Positions 807-15,559 of a DNA stretch of 64,000 bases are shown piece by piece. The notes under the pieces were generated by a model. It saw nothing but the letters and a program-made list of their open reading frames with translations, was not told the origin of the DNA and did no database searches. A program made the translations under genes and the position numbers. Within the stretch, counting starts at the first letter, position 1; each line of letters opens with the position of its first letter. Source of the DNA: Actinocatenispora rupis (GTDB lineage Bacteria > Actinomycetota > Actinomycetes > Mycobacteriales > Micromonosporaceae); NCBI RefSeq assembly GCF_016861975.1, contig NZ_BOMB01000012.1, forward strand, positions 1 through 64,000, read 5' to 3'.

Positions 807-813
807 GCTCACG

Positions 814-819
814 AGGCTA
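814..819 (-). promoter_or_regulatory. Candidate -10 box (TAGCCT) of a leaderless amidotransferase transcript
   Basis: TAGCCT on the minus strand lies 7 nt before the GTG at 806. The same arrangement precedes several other genes in this window. Confidence 0.5.
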
Positions 820-908
820 TCGATCCCCACCCGCGGCCGGTCCGCGGACCGCGGGTGGAAACCGACACACTCGGCCGTGCACACGGCCGCTCGTTCGACG
901 GAAACGGC

Positions 909-1610
909 TCAGACGGCGGAGAGTCGGCGCACCACTTGCTCCGGAATGTCCAGCGCCGGCAGATCGCGGCGGGCGGGCACGTGCTCGGTGCCCAGCCGCG
1001 CGTGCCGGATCCGGTCGATCCGGAACGCGCGGACGTCGTGCCGCAGCCGGCACCACGCCAGCAGCAGCCAGTGCTCGCGGGCGCCGACGAAGCCGATCGG
1101 CTCGACGGTGCGGTGGCTGAGCCGGCCGCGGCGGTCCGCGTAGTCGAGGTCGAGGACGCGCTCGGCGGTGAGCGCCTCCTGCAACACCACCGGTACGGCC
1201 GGGAACTGGCCGGCGGTCTCGACCTCGATGCCGGCGTGCGCGGCGACCGCCTCGGCGGCGGCACCGGTCACCCCCGGGTACCGCGCGCGCAGCTTGTCCA
1301 GTACACCGTCGGCGGCCTGCTGGAACGGGGTGCCCGCCAGCCGGGACAGGGCGACCGCGAGCGCGACGGCCTCCTCCGGCGTGACCGACATCGGGGGCAG
1401 GTCGCGGGCGGTCGCGTCCACCGCGAACCCACCCTCCGGTCCAGGTACGGCATAGACCGGGACACCGCTGGCGGCGAGCGCTGCCGTGTCGCGCTCGATG
1501 GTGCGCACGCTCACCGCGAAACGCTCGGCGAGCTGGCGCGTGGTGCGCGGCGACGGTGCCGCGGCACGAAGTTCGTCGACGAGTGCATGGAGTCGTTCGG
1601 TCCGGTTCAT
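909..1610 (-). CDS. WYL-domain transcriptional regulator (HTH_11 + WYL, YafY/PafC-like)
   Basis: This 233-residue protein has an N-terminal winged helix (about residues 1-60, recognition region AERFAVSVRTIERDTAAL) followed by a WYL-type ligand-sensing domain (about 100-215, with LDLDYADRRG and LLAWCRLRHDVRAFRIDRI). Such regulators are usually local repressors or activators that sense nucleotides or small ligands. The ATG at 1610 fits the fold and follows a TACTGT -10 box by 6 nt, so it is probably leaderless. An 8-bp inverted repeat straddles this promoter and start codon, suggesting autoregulation. The target gene is not obvious; the amidotransferase lies downstream. Confidence 0.88.
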   Translation of the reverse strand: MNRTERLHALVDELRAAAPSPRTTRQLAERFAVSVRTIERDTAALAASGVPVYAVPGPEGGFAVDATARDLPPMSVTPEEAVALAVALSRLAGTPFQQAADGVLDKLRARYPGVTGAAAEAVAAHAGIEVETAGQFPAVPVVLQEALTAERVLDLDYADRRGRLSHRTVEPIGFVGAREHWLLLAWCRLRHDVRAFRIDRIRHARLGTEHVPARRDLPALDIPEQVVRRLSAV

Positions 1611-1636
1611 ACCCAGACAGTACGACCGGGGTATGA
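1607..1636. promoter_or_regulatory. Candidate operator: TCATACCC-N14-GGGTATGA around the WYL regulator promoter
   Basis: TCATACCC at 1607-1614 and GGGTATGA at 1629-1636 are perfect 8-bp inverted arms, 22 bp centre to centre, about two helical turns. They flank the TACTGT -10 box (minus strand, 1622-1617) and overlap the ATG at 1610. This is the layout of an autoregulatory site. Confidence 0.55.
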
Positions 1637-1746
1637 CACTTTCGCCGTCCGCGGACCCGCCCGTCCGGTCCCGTACCGGACGGGCCGAACGCGACCGCTT
1701 CGCGCACCGGATCCCCGGCACCACACGGGAATCCGGCCTCCGGCTG

Positions 1747-2064
1747 TTACTCCGGGCGCAGCGCGACGGCGAAGCTGACGTTGCCGTTCTGGTCGACCTC
1801 GGCGTCCAGCGCCTTGTCGTCCAGGTACGCCGCGGCGCCGGACTCCAGGAACAGCCGCGCGCCGTCCGCGTCGAGCACCTGGTCGCCCGACTCGGGCGCC
1901 TGGGTGACGGCCAACGTCAGCGCGTGCGCGTCGTCGGGTACCGCCTCGGCGGTGTCGTCCGGCACGGTGTCAGCGGCGATCCGCAGGCCGGCGCCGGTCG
2001 GGTCGCCGGTCTGCTCGGTCAGGGTGCGGATGACGGCCACCGCGTTCTCGGTCAGGGCGAGCAC
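1747..2064 (-). CDS. HesB/IscA-like small protein lacking all cysteines
   Basis: This 105-residue protein has the A-type Fe-S carrier fold pattern: LTENAVAVIRTL at the start, GAGLRI in the middle, and a C-terminal FLESGAAAYLDDKALDAEVDQNGNVSFAV segment. True IscA proteins bind iron-sulfur clusters with three cysteines. This copy has none, and the usual CGCGxSF end is replaced by NVSFAV, so cluster binding in the classical manner is unlikely. Comparable cysteine-free relatives occur in actinobacteria. The GTG at 2064 has a GAGGAG binding site 6 nt upstream; the open frame to 2112 lacks support. Function unknown. Confidence 0.75.
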   Translation of the reverse strand: MLALTENAVAVIRTLTEQTGDPTGAGLRIAADTVPDDTAEAVPDDAHALTLAVTQAPESGDQVLDADGARLFLESGAAAYLDDKALDAEVDQNGNVSFAVALRPE

Positions 2065-2190
2065 TCGACTCTCCTCACGTGGGTTCGGCCAATCCACCCA
2101 CCCTGACTCCACCTGCCGGTATCGGCAACCGGAAGCGTCCGAAACCAGCCCCGCGGCCGAGCCGGAAACCGTTGCGGCGCAAGCGATACC

Positions 2191-2673
2191 TCAGGCGGCG
2201 GCCGAGTTTCGCCGGGCCACCGCGTACCGTACGACGGCGTGCAGGACCTCGCGGGCGGGCCGCGACCGGTCGGATTCGGTCAACAGCACCGGAACCTCCG
2301 GGCCCACCGACAGCGCCTCGCGCACCTCACCCAGCTCGTACCGGTCGGCGTTGGCGACGGCGACGAGGTGCGGCAGGCCGCGCGCCGCCGCGTAGTCCAG
2401 GGCGGCGAAGCTGTCCCGCAGCCGCCCCGCGTCGGCGAGCACGAGCGCGGCGACCGCGCCCCGGGACAGCGCGTCCCACATGAACCAGTACCGGTGCTGC
2501 GCGGGCATTCCGTACAGGTGCACGGAGACGCGGTCGGTCACCGCGCACCGCCCGTACGGCAGGACCGCGGCGCCGCCCTCCCCGTCGGACACCAGCCCGA
2601 CGAACGACGACCCCACCGCGCGCCCGCCCAACACCACGACCTTCAACGGGTACGCACACCGACCAGCGTCCAC
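2191..2673 (-). CDS. GTPase-like protein of the actinobacterial conservon (CvnD/MglA-like) type, degenerate nucleotide site
   Basis: The sequence follows the small ATP/GTP-binding proteins of Streptomyces conservons: VVVLGG start, then HLYGMPAQHRYWFMWDALSRGAVAALVLAD, a GLPHLVAVANADRY G4-like stretch, and EVPVLLTESDRSRPAREVL. The P-loop reads GGRAVGSSF, so the Walker A lysine is replaced by serine, and the G4 motif is NADR rather than NKxD. Nucleotide binding may be lost or altered. The usual partners (sensor kinase, roadblock protein, DUF742 protein) are absent; it stands alone between the HesB-like gene and the LLM fusion. Start is uncertain: GTG at 2673 (chosen) or TTG at 2646. Confidence 0.65.
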   Translation of the reverse strand: MDAGRCAYPLKVVVLGGRAVGSSFVGLVSDGEGGAAVLPYGRCAVTDRVSVHLYGMPAQHRYWFMWDALSRGAVAALVLADAGRLRDSFAALDYAAARGLPHLVAVANADRYELGEVREALSVGPEVPVLLTESDRSRPAREVLHAVVRYAVARRNSAAA

Positions 2674-2761
2674 CAGGCCCCCCGACCTCGGTTCGTCACA
2701 CACCCTGCGTACAACGGACGAGCGGGCGGTTCGGTGATGTGCGGGGTCACCCGGTGGGCGG

Positions 2762-4438
2762 TCACACCGGCAGCCGCAGCCGGGCGAGCGGCTCGACGAG
2801 CTCCCGCTCCTCGTACGACAGGTGCGACAGCAACGCGTCGGCGAGCAGGTCGGCCGCGGCGGACAGCGCGTCGATCCGGGCCGGGTCGTGCAGGGTGGCG
2901 ACGAGCGCGGCGTCGATCCGGTCCAGCAGGCCGGCAATCGCGTGGTGCTCCGACTCCAACCGGTCGAGTACCGGCGCCAGCCGCGGATCGCGCCGCCGCA
3001 GGTGCGGGAACAGCGACTCGTCCTCGATCGTGTGGTGCACCGCCAGGACCCGGCAGTAGCTCTCGCAGTACGCCCCGAGCGTCCAGTTGTTCTGCCGCAT
3101 GGTCAGCGTGTTCAGGTGCGAGCGGGCCGCACCCGCCGACAGCGAACCGTCCGCCACCTGCCGCACCATGCCGAGCAGCTCCGTCAGCTCGCCGCGCAGG
3201 TGGTCGTGGATGTCGATCAGGTGCCGGGCGTGCGTCCGGCCGTCCGGCGCGTACCGCACGGTCGGATCCGGCGCCGGCCCGGTCGGCCGCTCCGCCTCGT
3301 CCCACAGCGTCTCGGTCGAGCGCCGCGGCACGTCGTCCGCCGTCGGCACCACCCCCGGCACCACGCCGGCCACCTCGCGCACCCCGGAATCCCTTGGTAC
3401 GCCTGGCTCAGCGGCCCGGTCGGTGGCCCTGCCGGGTGACGTGGCACCGCCGGATGGCATGGCGCTGCCGGATTGCGTGGCGTTGTCGCGTGGCGTGGCA
3501 CCGTCGGGTGGCGTTGCGGTGCCGGGTGGCGTTGCGGTGCCGGGCTGGGCGGGTGGTGCGGCGCGTTCGGCGGCGACCAGGGCGCGGACGGCGGGCGCCA
3601 CCTCCTCGGCGTACCGGCGGAGGTCGGTGTCGTTGCCGACGGCGAGGACGAAGCCGCTGACGCCCTCGGACAGGGCCAGCTCGGCGAGCTGCTCGGCCCA
3701 CACCGCGGGCGGCCCGGCGAACCAGCCGCCGTCGCCGTCGAACGAGCCGGACACGTTGTACAGCCGGCGGATCGCGCCCGGGTCACGGCCGGCGTCGGCG
3801 GCGGCCTTGTCGATGACCGCGTTCATCGCGGCCAGCTCCTCGGGCGCGGCGTACCCGTACGACGGGAGCCAGCCGTCGGCGAGCCGCCCCGTCAGCTCCA
3901 ACATCCGCCTCTTGTACGCCCCGAGCCAGATGCCGATGTCGTGCGCCGGCGTCGGACCGGGTCGCGCGCCGGCCAGCCGGTAGTGCTCGCCGTCTACCGT
4001 ACGCGCCGGGCCCGGCGTCCACAGCGCGCGAACCACGGCGATCGCTTCGGCAAGCGCCGCAACGGATTCCGCTGCCGTACGCCGCGGTCCGCCCAGGGCC
4101 GCCACACCGTCCGGGAACGCGCCGGCGCCGAGCCCCAGCTCGACCCGTCCGCCGGTCAGTACGTCCAGGCTCGCGGCGGCGCGGGCCAGCACGGCGGGCG
4201 GCCGCAGCGGCAGGTTCGCCACGTTCGGAAAGACCCGGACCCGCTCGGTACGCGCCGCCACCACCGACAGCAGCGTCCACACGTCCAGGAACGCCGGCTG
4301 GTACGGATGGTCCTGCGCGCTCACCAGGTCCAGCCCGAGCCGGTCGGCCAGCCGCGCCAGCTCCACCACCGCGTCGGCGGACTCCGCCGCCGGCGGCACG
4401 AAGACCCCGAACTCCAGCTCGTGACCGTAGTCGGGCAC
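2762..4438 (-). CDS. LLM-class F420/flavin-dependent oxidoreductase fused to a C-terminal hemerythrin (HHE) domain
   Basis: In this 558-residue protein, residues about 1-292 are a luciferase-like TIM barrel (GVFVPPAAES start, LVSAQDHPYQ, GRVELGLGAGAF, IWLGAYKRRMLELTGRLADGWLPS), as in actinobacterial F420-dependent oxidoreductases. A low-complexity linker (about 295-395) follows; part of it is built of six-residue units coded by 18-bp tandem repeats. Residues about 400-558 form a hemerythrin-type four-helix domain with iron-ligand patterns HLIDIHDHL, HHTIEDESLFPHL, ESEHHAIAGLL and HLSYEERELVEPL. The fusion suggests an oxidoreductase coupled to oxygen, NO or redox sensing. It is divergent from a MarR gene with a perfect palindrome between them. 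The substrate is unknown. Confidence 0.88.
   Translation of the reverse strand: MPDYGHELEFGVFVPPAAESADAVVELARLADRLGLDLVSAQDHPYQPAFLDVWTLLSVVAARTERVRVFPNVANLPLRPPAVLARAAASLDVLTGGRVELGLGAGAFPDGVAALGGPRRTAAESVAALAEAIAVVRALWTPGPARTVDGEHYRLAGARPGPTPAHDIGIWLGAYKRRMLELTGRLADGWLPSYGYAAPEELAAMNAVIDKAAADAGRDPGAIRRLYNVSGSFDGDGGWFAGPPAVWAEQLAELALSEGVSGFVLAVGNDTDLRRYAEEVAPAVRALVAAERAAPPAQPGTATPPGTATPPDGATPRDNATQSGSAMPSGGATSPGRATDRAAEPGVPRDSGVREVAGVVPGVVPTADDVPRRSTETLWDEAERPTGPAPDPTVRYAPDGRTHARHLIDIHDHLRGELTELLGMVRQVADGSLSAGAARSHLNTLTMRQNNWTLGAYCESYCRVLAVHHTIEDESLFPHLRRRDPRLAPVLDRLESEHHAIAGLLDRIDAALVATLHDPARIDALSAAADLLADALLSHLSYEERELVEPLARLRLPV
3432..3539. repeat. Six 18-bp tandem repeats coding the linker of the LLM-HHE fusion
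   Basis: Six 18-bp units of the form CCGGGTGGCGTTGCGGTG, increasingly degenerate toward 3432, lie head to tail. They encode six-residue P/S-G-x-A-T-x units between the two enzyme domains. Divergence between units shows gradual decay after expansion. Confidence 0.85.
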
Positions 4439-4507
4439 CAGCCACCTCCCGCGCCGCGTCGACGCCCGCGTACCTCGGCGGGCCCGGTACAGTATGCCGC
4501 GCAGATG

Positions 4508-4522
4508 TTCTGTCCGACAGAA
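4508..4522. promoter_or_regulatory. Candidate MarR operator, perfect 15-bp palindrome
   Basis: TTCTGTCCGACAGAA has 7-bp arms (TTCTGTC/GACAGAA) around one central base. It lies between the divergent LLM-HHE and MarR start codons, close upstream of the MarR -10 box. Size and position fit a MarR dimer site controlling both genes. Confidence 0.6.
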
Positions 4523-4543
4523 GGTATGTCGTACCGCACACGC

Positions 4544-4549
4544 TAGGAT
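4544..4549 (+). promoter_or_regulatory. Candidate -10 box (TAGGAT) of the leaderless MarR gene
   Basis: TAGGAT ends 6 nt before the ATG at 4556, and no Shine-Dalgarno sequence is present, which fits leaderless transcription. Confidence 0.5.
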
Positions 4550-4555
4550 GGCGGC

Positions 4556-5095
4556 ATGGTGGCGTCACGTACCGGAAGCGGGGTCGAGGAGGACCTCGGC
4601 TGGGCCCTCGGCGTCGTCTTCCGCAGCTACGTCCGGGCCTCCGCGGCGGTCACCGACGGGATCCCCGGCGGGCACCGCGGATACCAGCTGCTCACCGCCG
4701 CGTGCGGCACACCACCCGCCACCCAGACCGCCATCGCCAGCCGGCTCGGCATCGACCGCACCGTCATGACGTACCTGCTCGACGACATGGAACACGCCGG
4801 CCTCGTCCGCCGCCGGCCCGACCCCGCCGACCGGCGTACCCGGCTCGTCGTCGCCACCCCGTCCGGCCGGCGCCGCCTCGCCCGCCTCGACGACGCCTTC
4901 CACACCCTCGAAACGCGCATCCTCGCCGGCCTGCCCGCCGCCGACCGTACCGCGCTGAAGTCGCTGCTGCGCCGGCTCGCCACCGCCCTCGACGCCGCCG
5001 ACCCCGTCGCCGACACCTGCACCGCCGTCGCCGACATCGCCGCCGCCACCGCGGCCCCCGTCACCCGCCGCACCTCCCCCCGCCCCACCCGCTGA
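4556..5095 (+). CDS. MarR-family transcriptional regulator
   Basis: This 179-residue protein has a central winged helix: TQTAIASRLGIDRTVMTYLLDDMEHAGLVRRRPDPADRRTRLV, including the family's DRR wing. Helices on both sides (about 15-45 and 115-150) would form the dimer interface. It is transcribed away from the LLM-HHE gene with a 15-bp palindrome between, so that gene is the likely target, with self-control. The ATG at 4556 is probably leaderless. The C-terminal tail is Thr/Ala/Pro-rich and probably disordered. The inducing ligand is unknown. Confidence 0.88.
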   Translation: MVASRTGSGVEEDLGWALGVVFRSYVRASAAVTDGIPGGHRGYQLLTAACGTPPATQTAIASRLGIDRTVMTYLLDDMEHAGLVRRRPDPADRRTRLVVATPSGRRRLARLDDAFHTLETRILAGLPAADRTALKSLLRRLATALDAADPVADTCTAVADIAAATAAPVTRRTSPRPTR

Positions 5096-5150
5096 CCCGC
5101 CGGTACCGTGAGCCGACGCTCCTGCGCGACGCGCACGCCGCCAAGCCGTC

Positions 5151-5525
5151 GAGCCAGGTGGGCGCCGTGCATCCACGAACCGGGCTGGCGTCCATGCCCT
5201 CGCCACTCTTTGCCCCGAACCCGCAGACACCTCACCGCGACCAGCGCACGGCCGGGAAACGCGACGGTTGAGCCAGGTCAACGACACCATGCCCCGTACG
5301 CATCCACGAACCGAGGCCCGTACCCATGGCTTCGCCGGCGTTCCCCAGAGGGTGCAGACACATCACCCGCGATCAGCGCACGGCCGAGAACCGCGACGGT
5401 TGAGCCAGGTCGGCGCCACGACGCCCCCCGGCGCATCCAGGAACCGAGGCTGGGGTCCATGCCTTCGCCGGCCCTTGCCCCGAGCACCCGTACGCATCAA
5501 GCGAACGTGCGCAGAGCCAGCGGTG
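5151..5525. repeat. Three direct tandem repeats of about 119-132 bp, intergenic
   Basis: Units begin with GAGCCAGGT at 5151, 5270 and 5402 (periods 119 and 132 bp). Shared blocks include GCATCCACGAACCG, CCATGCCCTCGCC-like and CAGCGCACGGCCG; units 1 and 2 both end in GCGACGGTT. Unit 3 decays after about 5490. No frame is conserved between copies and codon bias is lost, so I see no gene here. The repeats fill the gap between the MarR stop (5095) and the Hsp70 stop (5561). Confidence 0.85.
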
Positions 5526-5560
5526 CGTACCGGGCAGGAAACTCGGGCTGGGCCGGCCGG

Positions 5561-7354
5561 TCAGGCCGGTAGCGGGAGGGGGTGGGCGGTGAGGGCGCCG
5601 TGCGCGACGACGACCTCGGGCTGGTCGGTGACCGTGGCGGCCACGCCCAGTTCGCGGAGGATCCGGTCGGCGACCAGCGGCAGCCGGCTCGACCCACCGA
5701 CCAGTACGATGCCGGCCAGGTCGGGCGGCGCCACCCGGGCCGCGGCGAGTACCCCGTGGAGGGTGCGCATGGCGCGGTCGAGCAGGGGCCGGCAGAGGTC
5801 GTTCAGCTCGTCGCGGGTGAGGTGGACGCCGGGCTCGTACCCGGGGACGGGGAGCGGCGCGAGGCTCGTGCGGGACAGCATCTCCTTGGCCGCGCGGGCG
5901 TCGTCCCACAGCAGGCGCCGCGCCCGGAACTCCTCCGCCGTGCCGGGTGCGGTGAGGCGCGCCCACGCCGCCGGCGCCCGCTCGGCCACCGTACGGCCGA
6001 CGTGCCGGACGACGGCCTCGTCGATGTCGAGCCCGCCCAGGTCCTCGACCCCGTCGTACGCCACGACCTGGTAGCCGCCGTCGGCCGCCCGTACCGCCGC
6101 CACGTCCAGCGTGCCCGCGCCGAAGTCGAACACCACCAGCGTGCGCCCCGCCGCGACACCCTCCAACGCCGCGAACCGGTACGCCGCCGCCACCGGCTCA
6201 CTTACCACCCCCGCCACCGGCAGCCCGGCCCGCCGCGCCGCCGCCACCAGCAGGCCCTGCCGCCGCCGACCCCACGCCGCCGGGTACGTCAGTACCGTCT
6301 CCGGCACCCGCCCCACCACCCGCCGCGCCTCGTCCGCGACCCGGCCCAGCACCGCCGCCACCACCTCGACCACCGGGTACTCCCGGCCGCCGAGCAGCAC
6401 GCTCGTGTCGTCGATGCGGCGCTTCGGGTTCGGCTCGAAGCCGGCCGGGTCCAGCCGCGCCAGGTGCGCCGCGTCCCGCCCGGCCACCAGCGCACCCGAA
6501 CGGTCCGCGTACACCGCCGACGACAGCAGCGGCATCCCGTCGAACAGCAGCACCCGCTCCCCGTCCGACAGCGCCGCCACCGTGTTGTACGTCCCGAAGT
6601 CCACCGCCAACCGCGCCGCTCCGGCCGCCGGTACGGGTGCGGCCGGGGCCGGGCCCGCCGGTGCTGGGGCGGCCGGCGTCGTCGCTGCCGGGGCAGGCCC
6701 ACCCGGGAACACCGACGCCGATCCTGACGCTCCGGGGGCCGTCGCTGCCGGGGCAGGCCCAGCCGGGAACGCTGACGCGGGTCCTAGTGCTTCGGGGGCC
6801 GTCGGTGCCGGGGCAGGCTCCGGCGGGAACACTGACGCGGGTCCTGGTGCCCCGGGAGTCGTCGGTGCCGGGGCAGGCCCAGCCGGGAACGCCGGTGCGG
6901 GCGCGGGTCCTGGTGCCGCCGACGCTGGCTCCACCGGGTCGGGTCCGGGCGGGAACGCCGATGCCGTGGTGGGTTGCGACGACGTGGGTGCCGGGGCGAG
7001 CGGCCCCGCGTGGTACCCGGGCGGTGCCGGCCAGTCGGACGGTGGCGGGACGGCCGGTCCGGTCGGCCGCCGGTACGCCTCGTCCGGTAGCTGGGGCGCC
7101 GCGTCGCGCATCGGCACCGGGGCACCGGTGCCGGAGCTGGTCGCCGCACGCCGTTCCCGCCGCGACCGCTCGATGCGCCAGGTCACGACGATCGCGGCGA
7201 GCGCGAGCACCACCAGCGCCGCGGCCGCGACGTAACTCGCCACCGTCGCCCGCAGGTCGGCACCCGTCGCGGTCGGCGTCGTCGTGGCCACCAGCAGACC
7301 CGCGACCACCAGCAACACGACCGCCACGAACCGGACGACACGCACGCTGCACAC
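5561..7354 (-). CDS. Membrane-anchored Hsp70 ATPase-domain protein with Pro/Ala linker
   Basis: This 597-residue protein begins with two hydrophobic segments (about 8-26 and 40-59), then a Pro/Ala-rich region (about 100-245), then an Hsp70 nucleotide-binding domain to the end. Phosphate-1 is AVDFGTYNTVAA (about residue 249), phosphate-2 is VFDFGAGTLDVAAV and the adenosine motif is IVLVGGSSRLPLV. There is no peptide-binding domain or lid, so it is not a canonical DnaK. Part of the linker is encoded by 60-bp tandem repeats. It lies 107 bp downstream of the mycosin gene on the same strand and may be cotranscribed. Start GTG at 7354 follows GAAGGGC. An ATP-driven role at the membrane next to secretion proteins is my inference. 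Confidence 0.85.
   Translation of the reverse strand: MCSVRVVRFVAVVLLVVAGLLVATTTPTATGADLRATVASYVAAAALVVLALAAIVVTWRIERSRRERRAATSSGTGAPVPMRDAAPQLPDEAYRRPTGPAVPPPSDWPAPPGYHAGPLAPAPTSSQPTTASAFPPGPDPVEPASAAPGPAPAPAFPAGPAPAPTTPGAPGPASVFPPEPAPAPTAPEALGPASAFPAGPAPAATAPGASGSASVFPGGPAPAATTPAAPAPAGPAPAAPVPAAGAARLAVDFGTYNTVAALSDGERVLLFDGMPLLSSAVYADRSGALVAGRDAAHLARLDPAGFEPNPKRRIDDTSVLLGGREYPVVEVVAAVLGRVADEARRVVGRVPETVLTYPAAWGRRRQGLLVAAARRAGLPVAGVVSEPVAAAYRFAALEGVAAGRTLVVFDFGAGTLDVAAVRAADGGYQVVAYDGVEDLGGLDIDEAVVRHVGRTVAERAPAAWARLTAPGTAEEFRARRLLWDDARAAKEMLSRTSLAPLPVPGYEPGVHLTRDELNDLCRPLLDRAMRTLHGVLAAARVAPPDLAGIVLVGGSSRLPLVADRILRELGVAATVTDQPEVVVAHGALTAHPLPLPA
6681..6920. repeat. Four 60-bp tandem repeats within the Hsp70-protein linker
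   Basis: Blocks beginning GTCGSTGCCGGGGCAGG recur exactly every 60 bp at 6681, 6741, 6801 and 6861. They encode 20-residue units rich in Pro and Ala with a recurring PASxFP core. Weaker related sequence extends on both sides. This is a coding minisatellite. Confidence 0.88.
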
Positions 7355-7461
7355 AGCCCTTCGCTACACGCTTCGACGGGTCCGGCGGCGTCTCGGCTCC
7401 GCCGGCCCGCACATCGTGCCATCCCCCGTCATCCGGACAATCAGTCCGCGAACGCGGCGGG

Positions 7462-8667
7462 TCAGGCGCGGGGAGGTGGGGCGCCGAGGGACGGGCGGTC
7501 GACGGTACGCGAGCGGGCCGCGGCACCGCGGCGGCGTACGACGGCGATCAGCACACCCGCCAGCACCGCCACGACGAGTACGGCGGCGCCGGCCAGGACC
7601 CACGGCACCGGTGACCCGGTCGTACCCGCCGCCGCGGCTGGACTGTCCGATGTGGACGGTGACGGCTCCGCCGCCGGCAGCAACGGATTACGGTCCACCT
7701 TCGGTACGTCCGCGGTCAGCGCCCGCACCGGGTCCACGATCCCGAAGCCGTACTTCTCGTTGCGCCCAGCACCGTCCGGGTTCCGCGCCGTACGGATCAG
7801 CCGGTTGATGACGTTCGCCGCGCTCATCCCCGGGTACCTGCTCCGCACCAGCGCCGCCACCCCCGACACGATCGCCGCCGCATCACTCGTCCCGTCGGCG
7901 GTGACGTAGTCGCCCTGCTGATGTGCCTGCCGGCTCGTCACCGAGACGATGTTCGTCGCGGGCGCGGCCAGCACCGTCTCCGGGCCATGCGCCGAGCCGG
8001 ACCAGAACCGCATCGACTCGGTCACCCCGGAGACGGCGACGACGCCAGGAACATTCGCCGGCACGCTGACCGTCGAGTTGCCGGAACTCGTGTTGCCAGC
8101 GGCAGCAACGACGACAACGTCATGGTCGAACGCATACTTCAGCGCGGCCGAATCCGACGCGAGCGCCTTGCCGGATCCGCCCTGCGAGATGTTGATGACG
8201 CCCGCGCCGTGGTCCACGGCGTACCTGATCGCACGGTCCTGATCGCTGATGCTCTTGACGTCCACTCTGATCGGCATGATGCCGACACGGGGCGCGACAC
8301 CCAACGGACGACCGTCACCACCGGAAGAACCGATGTCGCTCGCCATTCCCGTGCCGTGGCCGTCCCGGTCGATGCCGCGGTCGGCGTCACCGATCAGCAG
8401 ACTGGTGCCGCCACGGACGCGGCCGCCGAAGACGGGATTGCCCGAGTCGACGCCGGAGTCGATGACAGCGACCGTCACTCCCCGACCGGTTGCGATCCGC
8501 TGAGCAGCCGGTATGTGCAGCGCATCCACCCACCACTGCTGGTCCCGCGGCGTCTCAGCAACTGCCACTCCGGGCAGAAGAACGGGTGCCGCAAGGAGAA
8601 ACGCCAGGATCACGCCTGCGCGGGCCAGAACCGGCCGCGTGCGTAGCCGAGCCGATCGCACTCTCAT
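7462..8667 (-). CDS. mycP: Mycosin (type VII secretion-associated subtilisin-like serine protease)
   Basis: This 401-residue S8 protease has a signal peptide (about 8-38), the catalytic triad Asp70 (AVIDSG), His104 (DGHGTGMAS) and Ser261 (DGTSDAAAIVSG), and the oxyanion Asn192 in AAGN. After a Pro/Ser-rich stretch comes a C-terminal transmembrane helix (about 350-375) with a basic tail. This is the mycosin layout: protease domain outside the membrane. Mycosins are needed for ESX secretion, where they process substrates and stabilise the channel. It starts 9 bp after the WxG protein stop, so they probably share a transcript. The ATG at 8667 follows GGGGG; a TTG precedes it directly. Confidence 0.9.
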   Translation of the reverse strand: MRVRSARLRTRPVLARAGVILAFLLAAPVLLPGVAVAETPRDQQWWVDALHIPAAQRIATGRGVTVAVIDSGVDSGNPVFGGRVRGGTSLLIGDADRGIDRDGHGTGMASDIGSSGGDGRPLGVAPRVGIMPIRVDVKSISDQDRAIRYAVDHGAGVINISQGGSGKALASDSAALKYAFDHDVVVVAAAGNTSSGNSTVSVPANVPGVVAVSGVTESMRFWSGSAHGPETVLAAPATNIVSVTSRQAHQQGDYVTADGTSDAAAIVSGVAALVRSRYPGMSAANVINRLIRTARNPDGAGRNEKYGFGIVDPVRALTADVPKVDRNPLLPAAEPSPSTSDSPAAAAGTTGSPVPWVLAGAAVLVVAVLAGVLIAVVRRRGAAARSRTVDRPSLGAPPPRA

Positions 8668-8676
8668 CAACCCCCG

Positions 8677-10032
8677 CTACTCGATCAACCCGGTGTGACT
8701 CGGCCGTTCCTTCGGCTGCCAGATACCGTCGTCGTCCTCGATCAGCCACGTCTGCCGCTCGTCGCGCTCCTGTGTCTTGCCGGCGCCCGGCTGCACCATC
8801 CCAGCGGCGCCGTTCGCGCCCCGGCCCATGGCCGACGCGGCCCGCTGGCCTGGTAGCTGATCTCGGATGTCGCTGCGCGGCCCGACCGGCTCGGCCGCGC
8901 TCGGTCTGGCGCCCACGCCCGCCGCGGTGCCTGCTCCGACACCGACCGCGCCGGCCCCGGCTCCGTAGCCGCCGATGCCGGCACCGCCCGCCGTCCCCGC
9001 TCCTGCAACCGGACCAGCGGACGCCGCGCCCGAGCCCGTCCCGTACCCGGCGCCGGTGCCGACGACTCCATCGGACACCGACGGGACCGAACCTTGCCCG
9101 CCGCCGGCCAGGGACGAGCCGACGCCACCGGCCGCGGAGACCGGCATCCGACCGGAGCCGAAATGCAACTGGTACCGACCGGGTGGCGACGATCCAGCAG
9201 CGCCCAGCGACATACCGCCGCCGAGCCCGGCCGCTCCGCCGGCCATTCCGTTCGCGCTGACGTCACTGCCTCCGGCCTGGTGAGCGTGGCGGTCGTCCGG
9301 GTGCTCCCCATCCCGGCTCCGCACCGGACCGGTCGGGGTGGGCATGTGGTGGGCTTCGCGGTCCCAGTCCGTACGGAGGGTGTCGAAGGCGGCGTGCGCG
9401 ACCTCCTTGTTCATGCCGTACCAGGTGCGGGCGACGTCGCGGAAGTACTTCTTCGCGGCGGCGTCGCGGCTGGCCTGTTCGGACAGCGGGCCGTGCCGGG
9501 AGCCCATGTCCACGGACCACTCGTCGGTACTGGCGCCGCGGCCGGATCCGCGGGTGCCGAGGGTGGCGTCGGCTTCGGCGGCGGCGTACCGCTGCCAGAG
9601 GTAGTCGACGGCGAGCGCCTCGAAGTCGGTGTACCGCCCGCGGTCGTCGCCGTAGTCGTCGTAGAGCCGGCCGCCGGTGCCGTCGTCGTCGCGGCCGGCG
9701 GGCAGCTGGCCGCCGAACGTCGGCACGGGAATGGCGCGTACGGCGTCGGAGAGGGCGGTGGCCTGGGTGTCGAGCCGGTCGAGGACCGCCGAGTATTCCT
9801 GGTTGAGCTGGTCGATGCGGTCGACGATCTGCTTGGCCTTGCGGGCGAACTCGGTGGCCGCGGGCCCCTTCCACTGCGTGGTCATGTTGGTCTGGAGCTC
9901 GGTGGCGCGGTCGCGGACCACGTCGAGTTCGCCGAAGAGGGTGTGCCAGGGGCGTTTCATGGCCTGGATGTCGTCGACGCGGCCGGGCAGGGTGACCTGC
10001 CGTACGGCGGCCTCCCAGGTGCCGTCGCCCAT
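8677..10032 (-). CDS. Large WxG-motif type VII secretion substrate-like protein with Gly/Ala-rich C terminus
   Basis: This 451-residue protein begins with helical hairpins carrying a W-x-G motif (WKG at 54-56). A YTDFE segment (134-138) matches the type VII export motif YxxxD/E. Residues about 255-410 are very rich in Gly and Ala, and the C-terminal tail (IEDDDGIWQPKERP) is acidic and ordered-looking. The layout resembles large WXG100/PPE-like secreted proteins rather than a 100-residue EsxA. It starts 2 bp after the stop of the EspC-like gene and is followed by the mycosin. No EccB, EccC, EccD or EccE gene is in the window. Function beyond export is unknown. Confidence 0.75.
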   Translation of the reverse strand: MGDGTWEAAVRQVTLPGRVDDIQAMKRPWHTLFGELDVVRDRATELQTNMTTQWKGPAATEFARKAKQIVDRIDQLNQEYSAVLDRLDTQATALSDAVRAIPVPTFGGQLPAGRDDDGTGGRLYDDYGDDRGRYTDFEALAVDYLWQRYAAAEADATLGTRGSGRGASTDEWSVDMGSRHGPLSEQASRDAAAKKYFRDVARTWYGMNKEVAHAAFDTLRTDWDREAHHMPTPTGPVRSRDGEHPDDRHAHQAGGSDVSANGMAGGAAGLGGGMSLGAAGSSPPGRYQLHFGSGRMPVSAAGGVGSSLAGGGQGSVPSVSDGVVGTGAGYGTGSGAASAGPVAGAGTAGGAGIGGYGAGAGAVGVGAGTAAGVGARPSAAEPVGPRSDIRDQLPGQRAASAMGRGANGAAGMVQPGAGKTQERDERQTWLIEDDDGIWQPKERPSHTGLIE

Positions 10033-10034
10033 CG

Positions 10035-10520
10035 TCACGCCTTCCCGGCCGGGTCGGCGCCGAGGCCGAGCGCGGCGTCGAGGGTACGGCGGTCGGCGGC
10101 GCTCAGCCGGTGGTGCGGGTCGTACGTGCCGAAGGAGCGGTGCGCGGCGTCCTCGGTCTCCAGATAGTTCTGTTGGCTCAACCGCAACGCTTTCGCGATC
10201 TGGTCGAAGTCGGCGGCGAGCGCCCGGAGGTCGTCGGCCATCCGCGCCCGCAGCTCGCCGTGCCGCTCGACGAGCCGGTCCGCCTCGGCGAACCGACCGA
10301 ACGGCGTGTGCGTGTGGCCGGCTCCCGCCTTCATCGCCGCCACCTCCAGCGAACTCGTGAAGTTGCGCCTGACGCGGCCGCGGAGATCGGTGGCGATCAG
10401 CGCGGCGAAGTCGGCGGCCCGGGTGAAGATCGCGTCGTCGCCCACCTCGTACCGGTCGCCGCTGGCCCGCGGCTCCACCCGCAGGTGGTGCCTCAGCTCG
10501 TCCGGCTGCCGCTCCGACAT
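10035..10520 (-). CDS. EspC-like small helical protein, possible type VII secretion partner
   Basis: This 161-residue protein is predicted to be mostly helical. It carries Y119-L-E-T-E123, matching the YxxxD/E export motif, after a helix-turn-helix pair, as in EspC/ESX secretion-associated proteins. No WxG is present. The ATG at 10520 has a strong GGAGGGGA binding site; the longer frame to 10733 lacks support. It is the first gene of a tightly packed run with the WxG protein and mycosin, so the two small-substrate-like proteins may form a heterodimer. Family assignment is tentative because similarity here is mostly structural. Confidence 0.65.
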   Translation of the reverse strand: MSERQPDELRHHLRVEPRASGDRYEVGDDAIFTRAADFAALIATDLRGRVRRNFTSSLEVAAMKAGAGHTHTPFGRFAEADRLVERHGELRARMADDLRALAADFDQIAKALRLSQQNYLETEDAAHRSFGTYDPHHRLSAADRRTLDAALGLGADPAGKA

Positions 10521-10784
10521 CAGGTCCCCTCCCCCGCGCACCCCACGCAATCCGAGACCGTATCGGATCCCCACCAACGCCGCCGCCACCCCCGAACCGC
10601 TCGGCGCACCCCACAACCAACCATCACGGTACGTCCCGGGCGAGCAGGCTCGGCCCAGCCCACAGCACCGCGGAGCCCACCCACCGGAGCGCCGGGCGGA
10701 GGCACGGCCGAGCGCGGAGGGGTGGTGCGGCACGCGGGCGACCGGTACCGGGGAAAGGCGGGAGCGCCGACGCCGGTACGGGGG

Positions 10785-12137
10785 CTAGAGGACGTTCAGG
10801 TAGCGCCGCCGCTCGTACGGGGTGACGCGGCTGGCGTACGCGTCCCACTCGGAGCGCTTGTTCTTGCAGAAGAAGTCGAACACGCCCTCGCCGAGGGTTT
10901 CGGCGACGAACTCGGAGCGGGCGAGGACGTCGAGCGCCTCGGACAGGTCGTGCGGCAGCGGCTCGTACCCCATGGCGCGCCGCTCGGCGTCGGTGAGCGC
11001 CCAGATGTCGTCCTCGGCGCCGGGCGGCAGCTCGTACCCTTCCTCGATGCCCTTCATGCCGGCCGCGAGGAGCACCGCGTACGCGAGGTAGGGGTTGCAG
11101 GCGGTGTCGATGGAGCGGACCTCGACGCGGGCGGAGTTGGGCTTGCCGTACGCGGGGACGCGGACGAGCGCGGACCGGTTGAGGTGGCCCCACGAGACGA
11201 ACGCCGGCACCTCGTTGGTGGTGTCCGGCAGCGGCGCCGGGAACAGCCGCTTGTACGAGTTGACCCACTGGTTCGTGATCGCCGTGTACTCCCGCGCGTG
11301 GTGCAGCAGCCCGGCGATGAACGAGCGCGCGACCTTGGACAGCTTCATCGGGTCGGTCGGGTCGTGGAACGCGTTGCGTTCGCCCTCGAACAGCGACAGG
11401 TGGGTGTGCATGCCGCTGCCGGGCTGTTCGGTGAACGGCTTCGGCATGAACGTGGCGCGCACCCCCTGCGACACCGCCACCTCCTTCACCACGTGCCGGA
11501 ACGTCATGATGTTGTCGGCGGTGGTCAGCGCGTCGGCGTACCGCAGGTCGATCTCCTGCTGGCCGGGAGCCACCTCGTGGTGGCTGAACTCGACGGAGAT
11601 GCCGATGCGTTCCAGGGCGAGGACGGCCTGCCGGCGGAAGTCGCGGGCCGCGGCGTGCGTGGTGTTGTCGAAGTAGCCGCCGGAGTCGACGGGGGTCGGC
11701 TCGGAGCCGTCCTCCGGCATGTCGGTGACCAGGAAGAACTCGATCTCCGGGTGGGTGTAGAAGGTGAAGCCCTTCTCCGCCGCCTTCGCCAGGGTGCGGC
11801 GCAGCACGTGCCGCGGGTCGGCCCAGGACGGCGCCCCGTCGGGCATCGCGATGTCGCAGAACATCCGGGCGCTCTCGCCGTTCGCCCCGCCCTCGAACGG
11901 GAACACCTGGAACGTCGCCGGGTCCGGTATGGCGATCATGTCCGACTCGTGTACCCGGGCGAAGCCCTCGATCGCCGAGCCGTCGAAGCCGATGCCCTCC
12001 TCGAAGGCGGCCTCCAGCTCGGCCGGCGCCACCGACACGCTCTTCAACGTGCCCAGCACGTCGGTGAACCAGAGCCGGAGGAACCGGATGTCGCGCTCCT
12101 CCAGGGTACGTAGCACGAACTCCTGCTGACGGTCCAT
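10785..12137 (-). CDS. glnA2: Glutamine synthetase type I, GlnA2-like
   Basis: This 450-residue protein starts MDRQQEFVLRTLEERDIRFLRLWFTDVLG, very close to actinobacterial GlnA2. Active-site landmarks are FDGSAIEGF, the metal ligands in HPEIEFF and HHEVAPGQQEIDLRY, GSGMHTHLSL, and NRSALVRVPAYG before ARVEVR. It lacks the NLYDLP adenylylation loop of GlnA1-beta enzymes, so it is an alpha-type enzyme unlikely to be controlled by adenylylation. It converts glutamate, ammonia and ATP to glutamine, although some GlnA paralogues take other amines. The ATG at 12137 follows CAGACT by 6 nt and may be leaderless. It is divergent from the epimerase gene. Confidence 0.93.
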   Translation of the reverse strand: MDRQQEFVLRTLEERDIRFLRLWFTDVLGTLKSVSVAPAELEAAFEEGIGFDGSAIEGFARVHESDMIAIPDPATFQVFPFEGGANGESARMFCDIAMPDGAPSWADPRHVLRRTLAKAAEKGFTFYTHPEIEFFLVTDMPEDGSEPTPVDSGGYFDNTTHAAARDFRRQAVLALERIGISVEFSHHEVAPGQQEIDLRYADALTTADNIMTFRHVVKEVAVSQGVRATFMPKPFTEQPGSGMHTHLSLFEGERNAFHDPTDPMKLSKVARSFIAGLLHHAREYTAITNQWVNSYKRLFPAPLPDTTNEVPAFVSWGHLNRSALVRVPAYGKPNSARVEVRSIDTACNPYLAYAVLLAAGMKGIEEGYELPPGAEDDIWALTDAERRAMGYEPLPHDLSEALDVLARSEFVAETLGEGVFDFFCKNKRSEWDAYASRVTPYERRRYLNVL

Positions 12138-12234
12138 GCCCGCAGTCTGCCTCTTCCCCGCGCCGGGCGGGTAACCGGCACGCCAACTCCGCCGTGTGCC
12201 AGGCTGTCGGCACCCGTACGGAGGAGGAACGCGG

Positions 12235-13005
12235 ATGCGGTTGCTGGTCATCGGTGGTGCCGGCTACGTCGGCCGGCTGGTTCTGCCCGGTCTCGCCGCC
12301 CGGCACCAGGTCCGGGTGCTCGACCTGCGTCGACCCGACACCGACTGCGAGTACGTGGCGGGCTCGGCGACCGATCCGGACGTCCTGGCGGAGGCGTGCG
12401 CCGGGATGGCGGCGGTCGTGCACATGGCGATGGCGCCGACCAACGCGCGCGGCGAGACCGACCTGGGCACGGCCTTCGACGTGCACGTGAAGTCGCCGTA
12501 CCTGACGGTCCGGGCGGCCCGGGACGCCGGCCACCTGGTGTTCGTGTCGAGCCTGTCGGTGCACCGCGACCTACGCGTACGGACGCTGGCGGCGGACGAG
12601 CCGGCCGACGCGACCGACCCGTACGGGCTGACGAAACGGCTGGGCGAGCAGGCCGCGACGGCCGCCGCCGGCGAGACGGGGAAGGCGCTGACCATCCTGC
12701 GGCTCGCCTGGCCGACCCCGGACGCGTCCTGGCCGGCGTGGCAGGTGGGCCTCGACGACGGCCCCGGCCCGGGCCGCACGTACGCGACGGCGGAGCCGGA
12801 CGACCCGCGCCCGCCGGTACGGATGCGGGACGGTCGGCCGCTCGCCGCGCTCGCCGCGTCCGACCTGACCGCGGCGCTGCTGGCCGCGCTCGACCGCCCG
12901 GACGGCGTCCGTACGCTGCCGCTCACCGGCGACACCACCGACACCGTGATCGACATGGCGCCCACCCGGGCCGCGCTCGGCTGGTCCCCCACCCGCCGGC
13001 TCTGA
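12235..13005 (+). CDS. NAD-dependent epimerase/dehydratase-like protein (SDR family)
   Basis: This 256-residue Rossmann-fold protein starts MRLLVIGGAGYVGRLVLPGLA, with the extended-SDR GGxGYVG nucleotide site. VFVSSLSVHRD matches the Ser region and DPYGLTKRLGE the catalytic YxxxK. It is shorter than sugar epimerases (usually 300 or more residues), so the substrate domain is reduced; this type is common in actinobacteria without known substrates. The ATG at 12235 has a GAGGAGGAAC ribosome binding site. It lies between the divergent glnA2 and nadE on the same strand. Confidence 0.85.
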   Translation: MRLLVIGGAGYVGRLVLPGLAARHQVRVLDLRRPDTDCEYVAGSATDPDVLAEACAGMAAVVHMAMAPTNARGETDLGTAFDVHVKSPYLTVRAARDAGHLVFVSSLSVHRDLRVRTLAADEPADATDPYGLTKRLGEQAATAAAGETGKALTILRLAWPTPDASWPAWQVGLDDGPGPGRTYATAEPDDPRPPVRMRDGRPLAALAASDLTAALLAALDRPDGVRTLPLTGDTTDTVIDMAPTRAALGWSPTRRL

Positions 13006-13093
13006 ACCCCACCCGCCGGTACGTGAGGGAACTCGCCGCTTCGGTCGGCGGGGGACGCTCGGCCGCGCCGGGCGGGTGCGCGAGGATGGGGAC

Positions 13094-14845
13094 ATGCCGA
13101 CGTTGCGCATCGCCCTCGCCCAGGTGGATCCCACGGTCGGCGACCTCGCCGGCAACGCCGAGCTGGTCCGCCGGACCGCCCGCCGTGCCGCCGACGAGGG
13201 CGCCCAGCTGGTCGCGTTCCCGGAGATGATGCTGACCGGGTACCCGGTGGAGGATCTGGTCTTCCGGGCCTCGTTCGTGGCGGCCAGCCGGTCCGCGGTG
13301 GAGCGGCTCGCCGCCGACCTCGCCGCCGACGACCTCGCCGACCTCCCGGTACTCGTGGGCTACCTGGACGCCGACGGCCCGCCGCGGATGAGCGCCGAGG
13401 CCGAACCGGACCGCGGCCCCCGCAACGCGCTCGCCGTCCTGCACGGCGGCACCGTCGCCGCCCGGTACTTCAAGCACCACCTGCCGAACTACGGCGTCTT
13501 CGACGAGGACCGGTACTTCGTCTCCGGCGACACGCTCACCCTCGTCCGGGTCGGCGGGGTCGACGTGGCGCTGACCGTCTGCGAGGACCTGTGGCAGGCG
13601 GGCGGGCCGTTCGCCGCGGCCCGCGGTGCGGGCGCCGGGCTCGTCGTCAACGTCAACGGCTCGCCGTACGAGCTGGCGAAGGACGACCTCCGGCTGGAAC
13701 TGTGCAGGCGGCGCGCGGCCGAGGCGGGCGCCACGCTGGCGTACGTGAACATGGTCGGCGCGCAGGACGAGCTGGTGTACGACGGGGACTCGCTGGTCGT
13801 CACCGCCGACGGGGAGCTGCTGGCGCGGGCGCCGCAGTTCGCCGAGGACCTGGTGGTACTGGATCTCGACCTGCCGGCCGCGTCGGACGGGCCGGCGCCC
13901 GCGGAGGCGGCCGGGATGCGGATCGACCGGGTGACGCTCGGGGCGACGCCCGCGGCGCCGACCGGGCCGCGGCGTACCGGGGAGTTGACGGAGCGGATCG
14001 CCGACGAGGCCGAGGTGTGGGCGGCGCTCGTCACCGGGCTGCGCGACTACGTCCGGAAGAACGGGTTCCGGTCGGTCGTGCTCGGCCTGTCCGGCGGCAT
14101 CGACTCGTCCGTCGTCGCCGCGGTCGCCTGCGACGCGCTCGGGCCGGAGCGCGTGTTCGGCGTCTCCATGCCCAGCGAGTACTCGTCGGAGCACTCCCGG
14201 TCGGACGCCGCCGACCTCGCCGACCGTACCGGGCTGCACTACCGCACCGAGCCGATCGCGCCGATGGTCGACTCGTACCTGGCGCAGCTGACGCTGTCCG
14301 GGATGGCCGTGGAGAACCTGCAGGCGCGGGTGCGCGGCGTGCTGCTGATGGCGCTGTCCAACCAGGAGGGCCACCTGGTCCTCACCACCGGCAACAAGAG
14401 CGAGCTGGCCGTCGGCTACTCCACGCTCTACGGCGACTCGGTCGGCGGCTTCAACCCGCTCAAGGACGTACCGAAGACGTGGGTGTTCCGGCTGGCGCGG
14501 TGGCGCAACGCGGACGCCGAGAAGCGCGGCACCACCCCGCCCATCCCGGAGAACTCCATCACCAAGCCGCCCAGCGCGGAGCTGCGGCCCGGCCAGCTCG
14601 ACACCGACTCGCTCCCGCCGTACGACGAGCTGGACACCATCCTCGCCGGGTACGTGGACGGCGACGCCGGACGCGCCGACCTGGTCGCCGCCGGGCACGA
14701 CCCGGCCGTGGTGGACCGGGTGATCCGGCTCGTCGACCTCGCCGAGTACAAGCGGCGGCAGTCGGCGCCCGGCCCGAAGATCAGCCCGAAGGCGTTCGGC
14801 CGGGACCGGCGGCTGCCCATCACCAACCGCTTCCGCGACAGCTAA
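13094..14845 (+). CDS. nadE: Glutamine-dependent NAD+ synthetase
   Basis: This 583-residue enzyme makes NAD from deamido-NAD, ATP and glutamine. The N-terminal nitrilase-type glutaminase (about 1-270) shows catalytic Glu in AFPEMMLTGYP, Lys in YFKHHLPNYG and Cys in LTVCEDLW. The C-terminal synthetase domain has the PP-loop LGLSGGIDSS and TGNKSELAVGYSTLYGD, both diagnostic. It resembles the shorter two-domain NadE form. Start ATG 13094 follows GAGGATGGGGAC; the GTG at 13076 is less likely. It converges on the Uma2 gene with a 4-bp overlap of stop codons. Confidence 0.95.
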   Translation: MPTLRIALAQVDPTVGDLAGNAELVRRTARRAADEGAQLVAFPEMMLTGYPVEDLVFRASFVAASRSAVERLAADLAADDLADLPVLVGYLDADGPPRMSAEAEPDRGPRNALAVLHGGTVAARYFKHHLPNYGVFDEDRYFVSGDTLTLVRVGGVDVALTVCEDLWQAGGPFAAARGAGAGLVVNVNGSPYELAKDDLRLELCRRRAAEAGATLAYVNMVGAQDELVYDGDSLVVTADGELLARAPQFAEDLVVLDLDLPAASDGPAPAEAAGMRIDRVTLGATPAAPTGPRRTGELTERIADEAEVWAALVTGLRDYVRKNGFRSVVLGLSGGIDSSVVAAVACDALGPERVFGVSMPSEYSSEHSRSDAADLADRTGLHYRTEPIAPMVDSYLAQLTLSGMAVENLQARVRGVLLMALSNQEGHLVLTTGNKSELAVGYSTLYGDSVGGFNPLKDVPKTWVFRLARWRNADAEKRGTTPPIPENSITKPPSAELRPGQLDTDSLPPYDELDTILAGYVDGDAGRADLVAAGHDPAVVDRVIRLVDLAEYKRRQSAPGPKISPKAFGRDRRLPITNRFRDS

Positions 14846-15354
14846 CCGTCCAGCTCGTCCAGCGGGACCACCCCGGCCGGCACGTACACCCGGCGGTCGG
14901 GGTCGAGGCGGAACTGCGCCACGTGCACGGTTCCGCTCCCGTCGCGGTCCGCCCGCCAGAACTCGGCGATCCCCAGCCTCGCGTACAGCGCGGGCTTGTC
15001 GATGTAGTCGTCGTCCCGGCTGCTCGGCGACACGACCTCGACGGCCAGCTCGATCTCGCCTGGCTGGAAGTACGCGCTGTCCTCGTCCGGCTCGTCGACG
15101 AACGCGGCCACGTCGAGGACGCGGGTCTCACCCGGCGCGATCGCCAAACCGACCTCGATCCGGCCGATACGGCCTTGTCGGATCAACAGGTTCGCGATCC
15201 GACGCTGCGCCTCGGTGTGCCAAACCCGAGCCGGGCTCATCACGACGATCCGTCCCCCATGCAGCTCGAACCGTGCGTGCTCGGGCAGCAGGTGCTCCGC
15301 CATCTCGACCGTGAAGCCATCGAACGGCGGCACGTGACTCGGCAGCGCTCCCAC
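14842..15354 (-). CDS. Uma2-family (DUF820) restriction-endonuclease-like protein
   Basis: This 170-residue protein has the PD-(D/E)xK-like Uma2 pattern: [29 protein letters not shown] (catalytic Asp), [33 protein letters not shown] (Glu and Lys). Uma2 proteins are widespread with no settled biological role. The GTG at 15354 has GGGGAGG 8 nt upstream; GTG 15363 and ATG 15423 are alternatives. It is convergent with nadE (overlapping ends) and divergent from panB. Confidence 0.85.
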
Positions 15355-15559
15355 CAGGCTCACCTCCCCGTCACCGCTGTCCCCGCCCACTCTACCTACG
15401 CGACGGTATGTGACATTCCGCATCGGGTACTGCCGTCGCGGCGCATTCTGGTGTGAGGATCGGCCTGGAGGAGCACGCCAGCGTCGGCGAGCATCGTCGG
15501 CGTACCGGCGTCTCCCCGCCCGGGGACCCGAACGGGCCCCGAGGGAAGGGAGCACACAG

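Follow-up and report, generated by a model that had tools for sequence, protein, structure and literature searches.

The window analysed here comprises the first 64,000 bases of contig C12 (bases 1-64000) in the genome of Actinocatenispora rupis (7.83 Mb, 81 contigs). It carries four genes on the minus strand, coding for an EspC-like protein, a long WXG protein, a mycosin and an Hsp70 ATPase-domain protein, with intergenic gaps of 2, 6 and 107 nt (Table 1). Our analysis indicates that the first three genes probably form an accessory type VII substrate and mycosin cassette which relies on an ESX channel whose genes lie elsewhere in the genome, and that the Hsp70 gene is a bystander. The evidence consists of the gene order, the recurrence of the trio in other genomes, the presence of ESX core genes on other contigs, a conserved C-terminal tail and the lack of a conserved Hsp70 linkage. 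An earlier note, made from the DNA letters of the window, had reported the four packed genes and had taken them as a substrate-protease set with a possible Hsp70-like chaperone or gate. Re-deriving the frames returned all four genes at the same coordinates, and the YLETE, WKG and YTDFE motifs as well as the complete mycosin triad were all present in the translations.

Table 1. Coordinates of the cassette and associated features (positions in the window).
Feature	Position	Strand	Description
EspC-like/PE-like protein	10035-10520	-	161 aa; YLETE (YxxxE) near the C-terminus
Long WXG (PPE-like) protein	8677-10032	-	451 aa; helical WxG domain, Gly-rich linker, tail TWLIEDDDGIW
C-terminal tail of the long WXG protein	8680-8751	-	24 codons, conserved; TWLIEDDDGIWQPKERPSHTGLIE
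Mycosin-like S8 protease	7462-8670	-	402 aa; D71/H105/S262, signal-like N-terminus, C-terminal hydrophobic helix
Hsp70 ATPase-domain protein	5561-7354	-	597 aa; neighbour, probably outside the cassette
Segment with no equivalent at this site in three other genomes of the genus	2655-10781		8.1 kb
EccC/EccD-bearing contigs	C24, C25, C36, C43, C48, C49

The trio recurs, often apart from EccC

Profiles for the three proteins were built from aligned homologues (same genome and relatives) and scanned in stretches of at most 20 kb. Sixty stretches, the window included, were chosen through mycosin, WXG or EspC matches and are thus not a random sample. The trio was found at fixed thresholds in 43 of them, and the other 17 stayed under the thresholds. 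These 43 loci are neither independent nor an event count: L068, L098 and L099 are one locus, L097 and L100 share downstream genes, and several further loci look orthologous to one another. The mycosin gene lies on the strand of the EspC-like/WXG pair in all trio loci except L057 and L106 (41 of 43); it follows the pair in 26 loci, precedes it in 11 and is found on both sides in 4. EccC was present within the stretch in 15 of the 43 loci and absent from it in 28.

Four EccC-linked loci (L058, L102, L255 and L257) share the order EccC, two small WXG100 genes, EspC-like, long WXG, mycosin; three others (L269, L270 and L272) have the mycosin ahead of the pair. Because the same genes occur in these EccC-linked copies, we tie the orphan trios to type VII secretion. 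Gene content and order of the window trio agree with those of some EccC-linked copies in this family (L058, L102, L257), but the window lacks the small WXG100 pair. Searches with profiles of EccC and EccD, the two core families covered, gave no match on contig C12, which in this respect falls short of a complete ESX/type VII secretion system locus. Elsewhere in the same genome, six EccC genes scored over the curated cut-off and six EccD genes were found, four of them over the cut-off, all on other contigs. The suggestion of the earlier note that the export channel of a substrate-protease set is encoded elsewhere, for which it proposed looking for EccC in the rest of the genome, is borne out to this extent: the trio recurs, often without EccC, and six EccC genes lie on other contigs. 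Its proposal that the four-gene order be sought in related genomes had a divided outcome, with the trio part holding in 43 of 60 stretches and the Hsp70 part in 2 of 43.

Among 80 named loci, 23 contained trio-like sets of lower score (25 sets; 20 loci from Streptomyces, 2 from Kitasatospora and 1 from Actinoplanes), and EccC was in the locus for one of the 25 sets. L156 of this named set and L259 of the family set are probably one record. Across the family, the WXG profile matched 280 of 354 genomes at E 1e-6, a figure that may include other WXG proteins and is not a count of trios.

This kind of cassette has a published precedent. In Micromonospora lupini Lupac 08, the passages on its second type VII cluster describe esxA, esxB and mycP alone (PMC4182475), that is, likewise two presumed substrates and a mycosin without core genes. 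The M. lupini genes are named esxA and esxB (PMC4182475), and may differ in type from the long WXG and EspC-like genes. In Micromonosporaceae, units of a mycosin with a substrate pair are frequent away from EccC, a point relevant to how type VII cargo is discriminated.

Some trio loci showed variant surroundings. In five loci of genus g7 (L127, L130, L258, L261, L262), two EspC-like/long WXG pairs are separated by about 4-5 kb that include a single mycosin gene; in this variant the mycosin precedes one of the pairs. Directly downstream of the trio in genome G050, whose mycosin is among the closest to that of the window, a minus-strand gene (L062:6861-10121) codes for a protein of 1086 aa with an N-terminal WXG100_2 domain (88.3 bits), possibly a large type VII substrate. 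HTH_31/DUF5753 regulator genes lie directly upstream of two trios (L062:13632-14498 and L099:5349-6197) and are possible cassette regulators.

Properties of the cassette proteins

The mycosin scored 128.6 bits against Pfam Peptidase_S8 (cut-off 21.8) and is an S8 subtilase by this measure. It reached 266.9 bits against TIGR03921, under the cut-off of 278.75, and was filed as mycosin-like. The triad was placed by motif position at Asp71, His105 and Ser262, and a signal-like N-terminus and a C-terminal membrane helix were judged by eye from the sequence. The best match among solved structures was 4hvl, MycP1, and in the tree the window mycosin sits on a long branch (1.03). Mycobacterial mycosins belong to their ESX loci. 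MycP1 and MycP5 are likewise S8 proteases with the triad; in contrast to them, the window mycosin is an orphan copy that scores under the TIGR03921 cut-off. As a reading of the genes as a defence system, PADLOC returned a generic subtilase and a weak IetS for the mycosin and nothing for the other three proteins, and this reading was rejected.

The names EspC-like and WXG rest on position and motifs, profile matches being sub-threshold or absent, and are used here as putative assignments. Aligned with 13 genes picked by their same position in other trios, the EspC-like protein shows 14-23 percent identity to them. It gave no match to PF10824 (EspC) in the Pfam search, and its homologue L068:12066-12539 reached 20.5 bits against that profile, under the cut-off of 23.5. 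The YxxxD/E motif reported in EspC and PE25 in passages of PMC3935865 is present in the window protein as YLETE. When the EspC-like profile was compared with solved structures, chiefly coiled coils were returned, which is uninformative. The long WXG protein came close to three Pfam cut-offs without reaching any (WXG100_2, 23.2 of 27; PPE, 22.1 of 26; WXG100, 19.7 of 27.3 bits). In the alignment of the long WXG proteins the W of the WKG turn is invariant and the G invariant or nearly so, and their profile matched the solved structures of EsxA (E 2e-6) and PPE41 (E 0.14).

A conserved peptide closes the long WXG proteins

The long WXG proteins end, behind the Gly-rich linker, in the peptide [ST]WLxED...W, in which W, L, E and D do not vary among 15 aligned members. 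The looser pattern [ST][WY][LMVI]x[ED][DE] occurred within the last 60 residues of 47 of 48 long WXG frames (43 loci) and in none of the 6743 further frames (150 aa or longer) from the same DNA. In L100, the only exception, another frame contains a second piece of WXG sequence. Some of these proteins had served to derive the pattern, so that the comparison speaks to its specificity and not to a function. With W/F added, it was found in 4 of 4933 frames of the named loci, all of them long WXG proteins (one from Actinoplanes, three from Actinomadura), and in none of the Streptomyces loci of that set. A literature search with four spellings of the peptide returned no paper, most subscription journals being outside its reach. 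We regard the tail as a candidate docking or export signal. If it is a docking signal, it would offer a testable handle on cargo recognition outside mycobacteria.

A model for the cassette

The EspC-like and long WXG proteins would probably form a PE/PPE-like heterodimer of two helical hairpins bound together, in which the YxxxE of one partner would come to lie beside the WxG turn of the other and create a composite export signal. One of the ESX machines encoded elsewhere in the genome, which has six EccC genes, would then export the pair. Two reports describe mycosins as bound loosely to the ESX core and required for its stability (PMC5082899) and as forming an outer cap (PMC11217815). Because mycosins associate with and stabilise the ESX core, carrying a separate mycosin may allow a cassette to fit a shared machine to its cargo; located on the outer face of the machine, this mycosin may steady or adapt it, or clip the cargo. 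The acidic-aromatic tail, carried on the flexible Gly-rich linker, may dock to a part of the machine or to the mycosin. The Hsp70-like gene belongs to a large family whose products are membrane-tethered and carry an ATPase domain, and would have come to lie here by chance or by an independent insertion.

The Hsp70-like protein and its family

The Hsp70 protein scored 118.8 bits against PF00012 over the ATPase domain alone and ends right behind this domain. The two membrane helices that had been noted before correspond to hydrophobic stretches at residues 6-24 and 38-56, which are followed by a Pro/Ala linker and the ATPase domain. The linker is encoded by a 60-bp tandem repeat in 3.7 copies (window 6680-6901), i.e. 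a 20-aa repeat. The protein could be aligned to DnaK, and it contains DFGTYNT, FDFGAGT and LVGGSSRLP, which we take to be the Hsp70 phosphate and adenosine motifs. Neither a DnaK-type interdomain linker nor a substrate-binding domain is present in the protein. With the ATPase domain as its C-terminal part, it is unlikely, from its predicted domain content, to act as a DnaK-like chaperone.

The gene finder picked an inner start for this frame (5561-6604), and it is conceivable that the frame consists of two genes read as one. We favour a real N-terminus: the GC content by codon position in the helix hairpin (0.76/0.56/0.91) supports coding, and positive residues lie behind helix 2.

A family match to the ATPase domain at E 1e-30 was obtained in 100 of 121 family genomes. 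Within the genus, represented by four genomes, there are 47 copies (19 in G000, 8 in G012, 9 in G050 and 11 in G070), two of them split. This count was taken from 58 rows and comprises 47 genes of more than 180 bits; two weaker rows were taken as the second pieces of split genes, and nine further weak rows (30-34 percent identity) were excluded. L120, which repeats a copy in L118, was left out of the Hsp70 counts. The ATPase domain of the window protein is 47-57 percent identical to those of the 46 other members in the genus. In the members examined singly, Pfam assigned HSP70 over the ATPase part only and no substrate-binding domain. Most members have the layout ATPase domain, linker, helix and variable outer part, with 8-19 copies per genome, and a PQQ-like propeller match was seen in 3 of 24. 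A helix follows the ATPase domain in 47 of 54 family frames and precedes it in two, the window protein and L289, the latter call being at threshold; the stretches of L289 and L278 end at contig ends. The window copy thus differs from the genus family in its two helices and linker ahead of the ATPase domain, an inverted order that is odd. From the number of helices and the positive residues, the ATPase domain should face the cytosol in both domain orders.

Linkage of the Hsp70 gene to the trio

All 47 Hsp70 places of the genus were scanned. Two copies adjoin a trio, namely those of the window and of L068. The stretches of the other 45 copies and of seven Hsp70 genes from other genera, 6.7-20 kb long and in some cases cut by contig ends, gave no match to a trio gene, WXG100, EccC or EccD, and none of the 50 stretches that had been chosen for their Hsp70 genes contained the trio. 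Counted from the side of the trio, an Hsp70 gene lies in the stretch in 2 of 43 trio loci (again the window and L068) and in 0 of 80 named loci.

In L068 (genome G070) the Hsp70 gene is located 93 nt upstream of the EspC-like gene on the same strand, and its product has the membrane helix after the ATPase domain. L098 (G012) and L099 (G050) are the same locus as L068, with flanking genes that are mostly 91-99 and in a few cases 71-89 percent identical; in both, the trio is present and the Hsp70 gene absent. At the site of the Hsp70 gene, L099 has an HTH/DUF5753 regulator, and an 81-residue match to this regulator remains in L068. A tree of 54 ATPase domains joined the L068 copy as sister with the G000 copy L277, which is not near a trio. 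The window copy falls into another supported group than that of L068, on a long branch (0.59) whose placement is less sure.

These data bear on the proposal that the four genes are one unit, with the membrane-anchored Hsp70 ATPase as chaperone, energiser or gate for WXG export. The shared strand and the 107-nt gap speak for it, as do the L068 trio of the same genus, which has a co-oriented Hsp70 gene at a distance of 93 nt, and a number of adjacencies, two, that lies above a rough chance count. There is also no terminator-like site between the mycosin and Hsp70 genes, but the consensus scan (4400-12300) found no promoter- or terminator-like site anywhere and is uninformative at such G+C. Against these points, 41 of 43 trio loci have no Hsp70 gene, the orthologous loci L098 and L099 do without it, the Hsp70 proteins of the window and L068 differ in subfamily, domain order and side of the trio, and the window protein has no substrate-binding domain. 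On linkage, orthologous loci, subfamily and domain content we rejected the Hsp70 protein as a part of the system and consider the four-gene unit very unlikely. The chaperone or gate role given to it in the earlier note does not agree with a gene that is unlinked in 41 of 43 trios and belongs to another subfamily, on the other side, in L068; nor is a chaperone role in keeping with a protein devoid of a substrate-binding domain. That note had named unlinked genes in relatives as an outcome that would speak against its proposal, and the fourth gene was indeed found to be mostly unlinked. The reading as a new system was a tempting one, and gene packing alone had made an apparently unrelated ATPase resemble a secretion part.

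Alternatively, the Hsp70 gene could be read through from the promoter of the trio, so that its product is co-expressed but has a function of its own, perhaps that of a membrane-tethered actin-like sensor. The short gap and the common strand are compatible with read-through, and family members adjoin unrelated genes (HAD hydrolases, SpoU methylase, CysS, GDPD, MFS, ABC). A promoter invisible to the consensus scan would, however, fit into the 107-nt gap, and we regard this alternative as unlikely. Among 54 neighbour proteins in 21 Hsp70 stretches, the commonest Pfam assignments were HAD hydrolases, MFS, ABC, SpoU methylase, GDPD and cysteinyl-tRNA synthetase.

Among the titles and abstract starts listed by literature searches, which reach few subscription journals, none concerned a role of this Hsp70 family in type VII secretion, and in a subset of these listings none was about the family at all. 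Passages of a report on CoCoNuT systems describe type III-A extended loci in which Hsp70-like domains occur together with WXG100 proteins and an EssC-like ATPase (PMC11090510). Those systems involve a McrBC-type GTPase and RNA targeting, and their Hsp70-like unit includes a substrate-binding domain, unlike that of the window (PMC11090510). The type III-A passages of the same report mention no mycosin, again unlike the window (PMC11090510).

Observations at odds with an accessory cassette

Several observations weigh against an accessory cassette with a bystander Hsp70 gene. The extended pattern [YFW]xxx[DE]..N is kept in 47 of 48 EspC-like frames, and the window protein is the single frame without it, the Asn at the third position behind YLETE being absent. 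Used alone as a query, the EspC-like protein matches in 5 of 121 family genomes, its own included, and both it and the WXG protein score under the curated profile cut-offs. Finally, the two Hsp70 adjacencies exceed a rough neutral count, in which 15 genus trios, 47 Hsp70 genes and 1.1 kb per gene were assumed: 0.054 adjacencies are expected on either strand (P 0.0014) and 0.027 on the same strand (P 0.0004). When the window, which drew the search, is excluded, 0.049 are expected and one is observed (P 0.048), which is the fairer figure. This excess is the strongest of the opposing points, yet it is weak, given that the trios lack independence and that the second case is confined to one lineage.

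Two further explanations were considered. The trio may be a decayed or idle copy derived from a duplicated ESX-linked unit that has lost export, as the missing extended motif of the EspC-like protein and the long branch and sub-cut-off TIGR03921 score of the mycosin might suggest. Open frames, the intact triad, WKG, YLETE and the C-terminal tail are all retained, though, and the codon-position GC is close to that of neighbouring genes, so that we hold decay to be quite improbable. One could also imagine that orphan cassettes in the genus repeatedly and independently recruit membrane-tethered Hsp70s as a non-chaperone, ATP-driven ESX accessory, with the inverted domain order of the window protein as an adaptation; we give this little credence. 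That the recruited proteins would then come from different subfamilies and have either domain order is a corollary to which we attach equally little weight. An accessory cassette beside a bystander Hsp70 gene remains our preferred reading.

Surroundings of the cassette

Upstream, the cassette borders on a glutamine synthetase gene (frame 10785-12251); downstream of the four genes lie a plus-strand MarR-type regulator and a luciferase-like/hemerythrin gene. The latter (window 2762-4438, minus strand) joins luciferase-like monooxygenase (LLM) and hemerythrin domains in a single frame and is missing from the same site in three congeners. Between the Hsp70 and MarR genes, a 132-bp direct repeat is present in about 2.4 copies (window 5169-5487); among the fetched loci from L056 on, no copy was found except in L076, which is the same place.

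In each of the three congeneric genomes, the flanks of this region (window 76-2654 and about 10782-16408, with breaks) map to a single site and enclose 3.1-3.4 kb of other sequence compared with 8.1 kb in the window. No match at E 1e-5 was obtained at these sites for the Hsp70, mycosin, WXG, EspC-like, MarR and LLM proteins. Because the congener sites have other sequence there, the trio and the Hsp70 gene both belong to a segment peculiar to this one of the four genomes; that alone does not show a joint arrival. In G050 the intervening stretch holds a 637-aa frame, which we take to resemble prolyl-tRNA synthetase.

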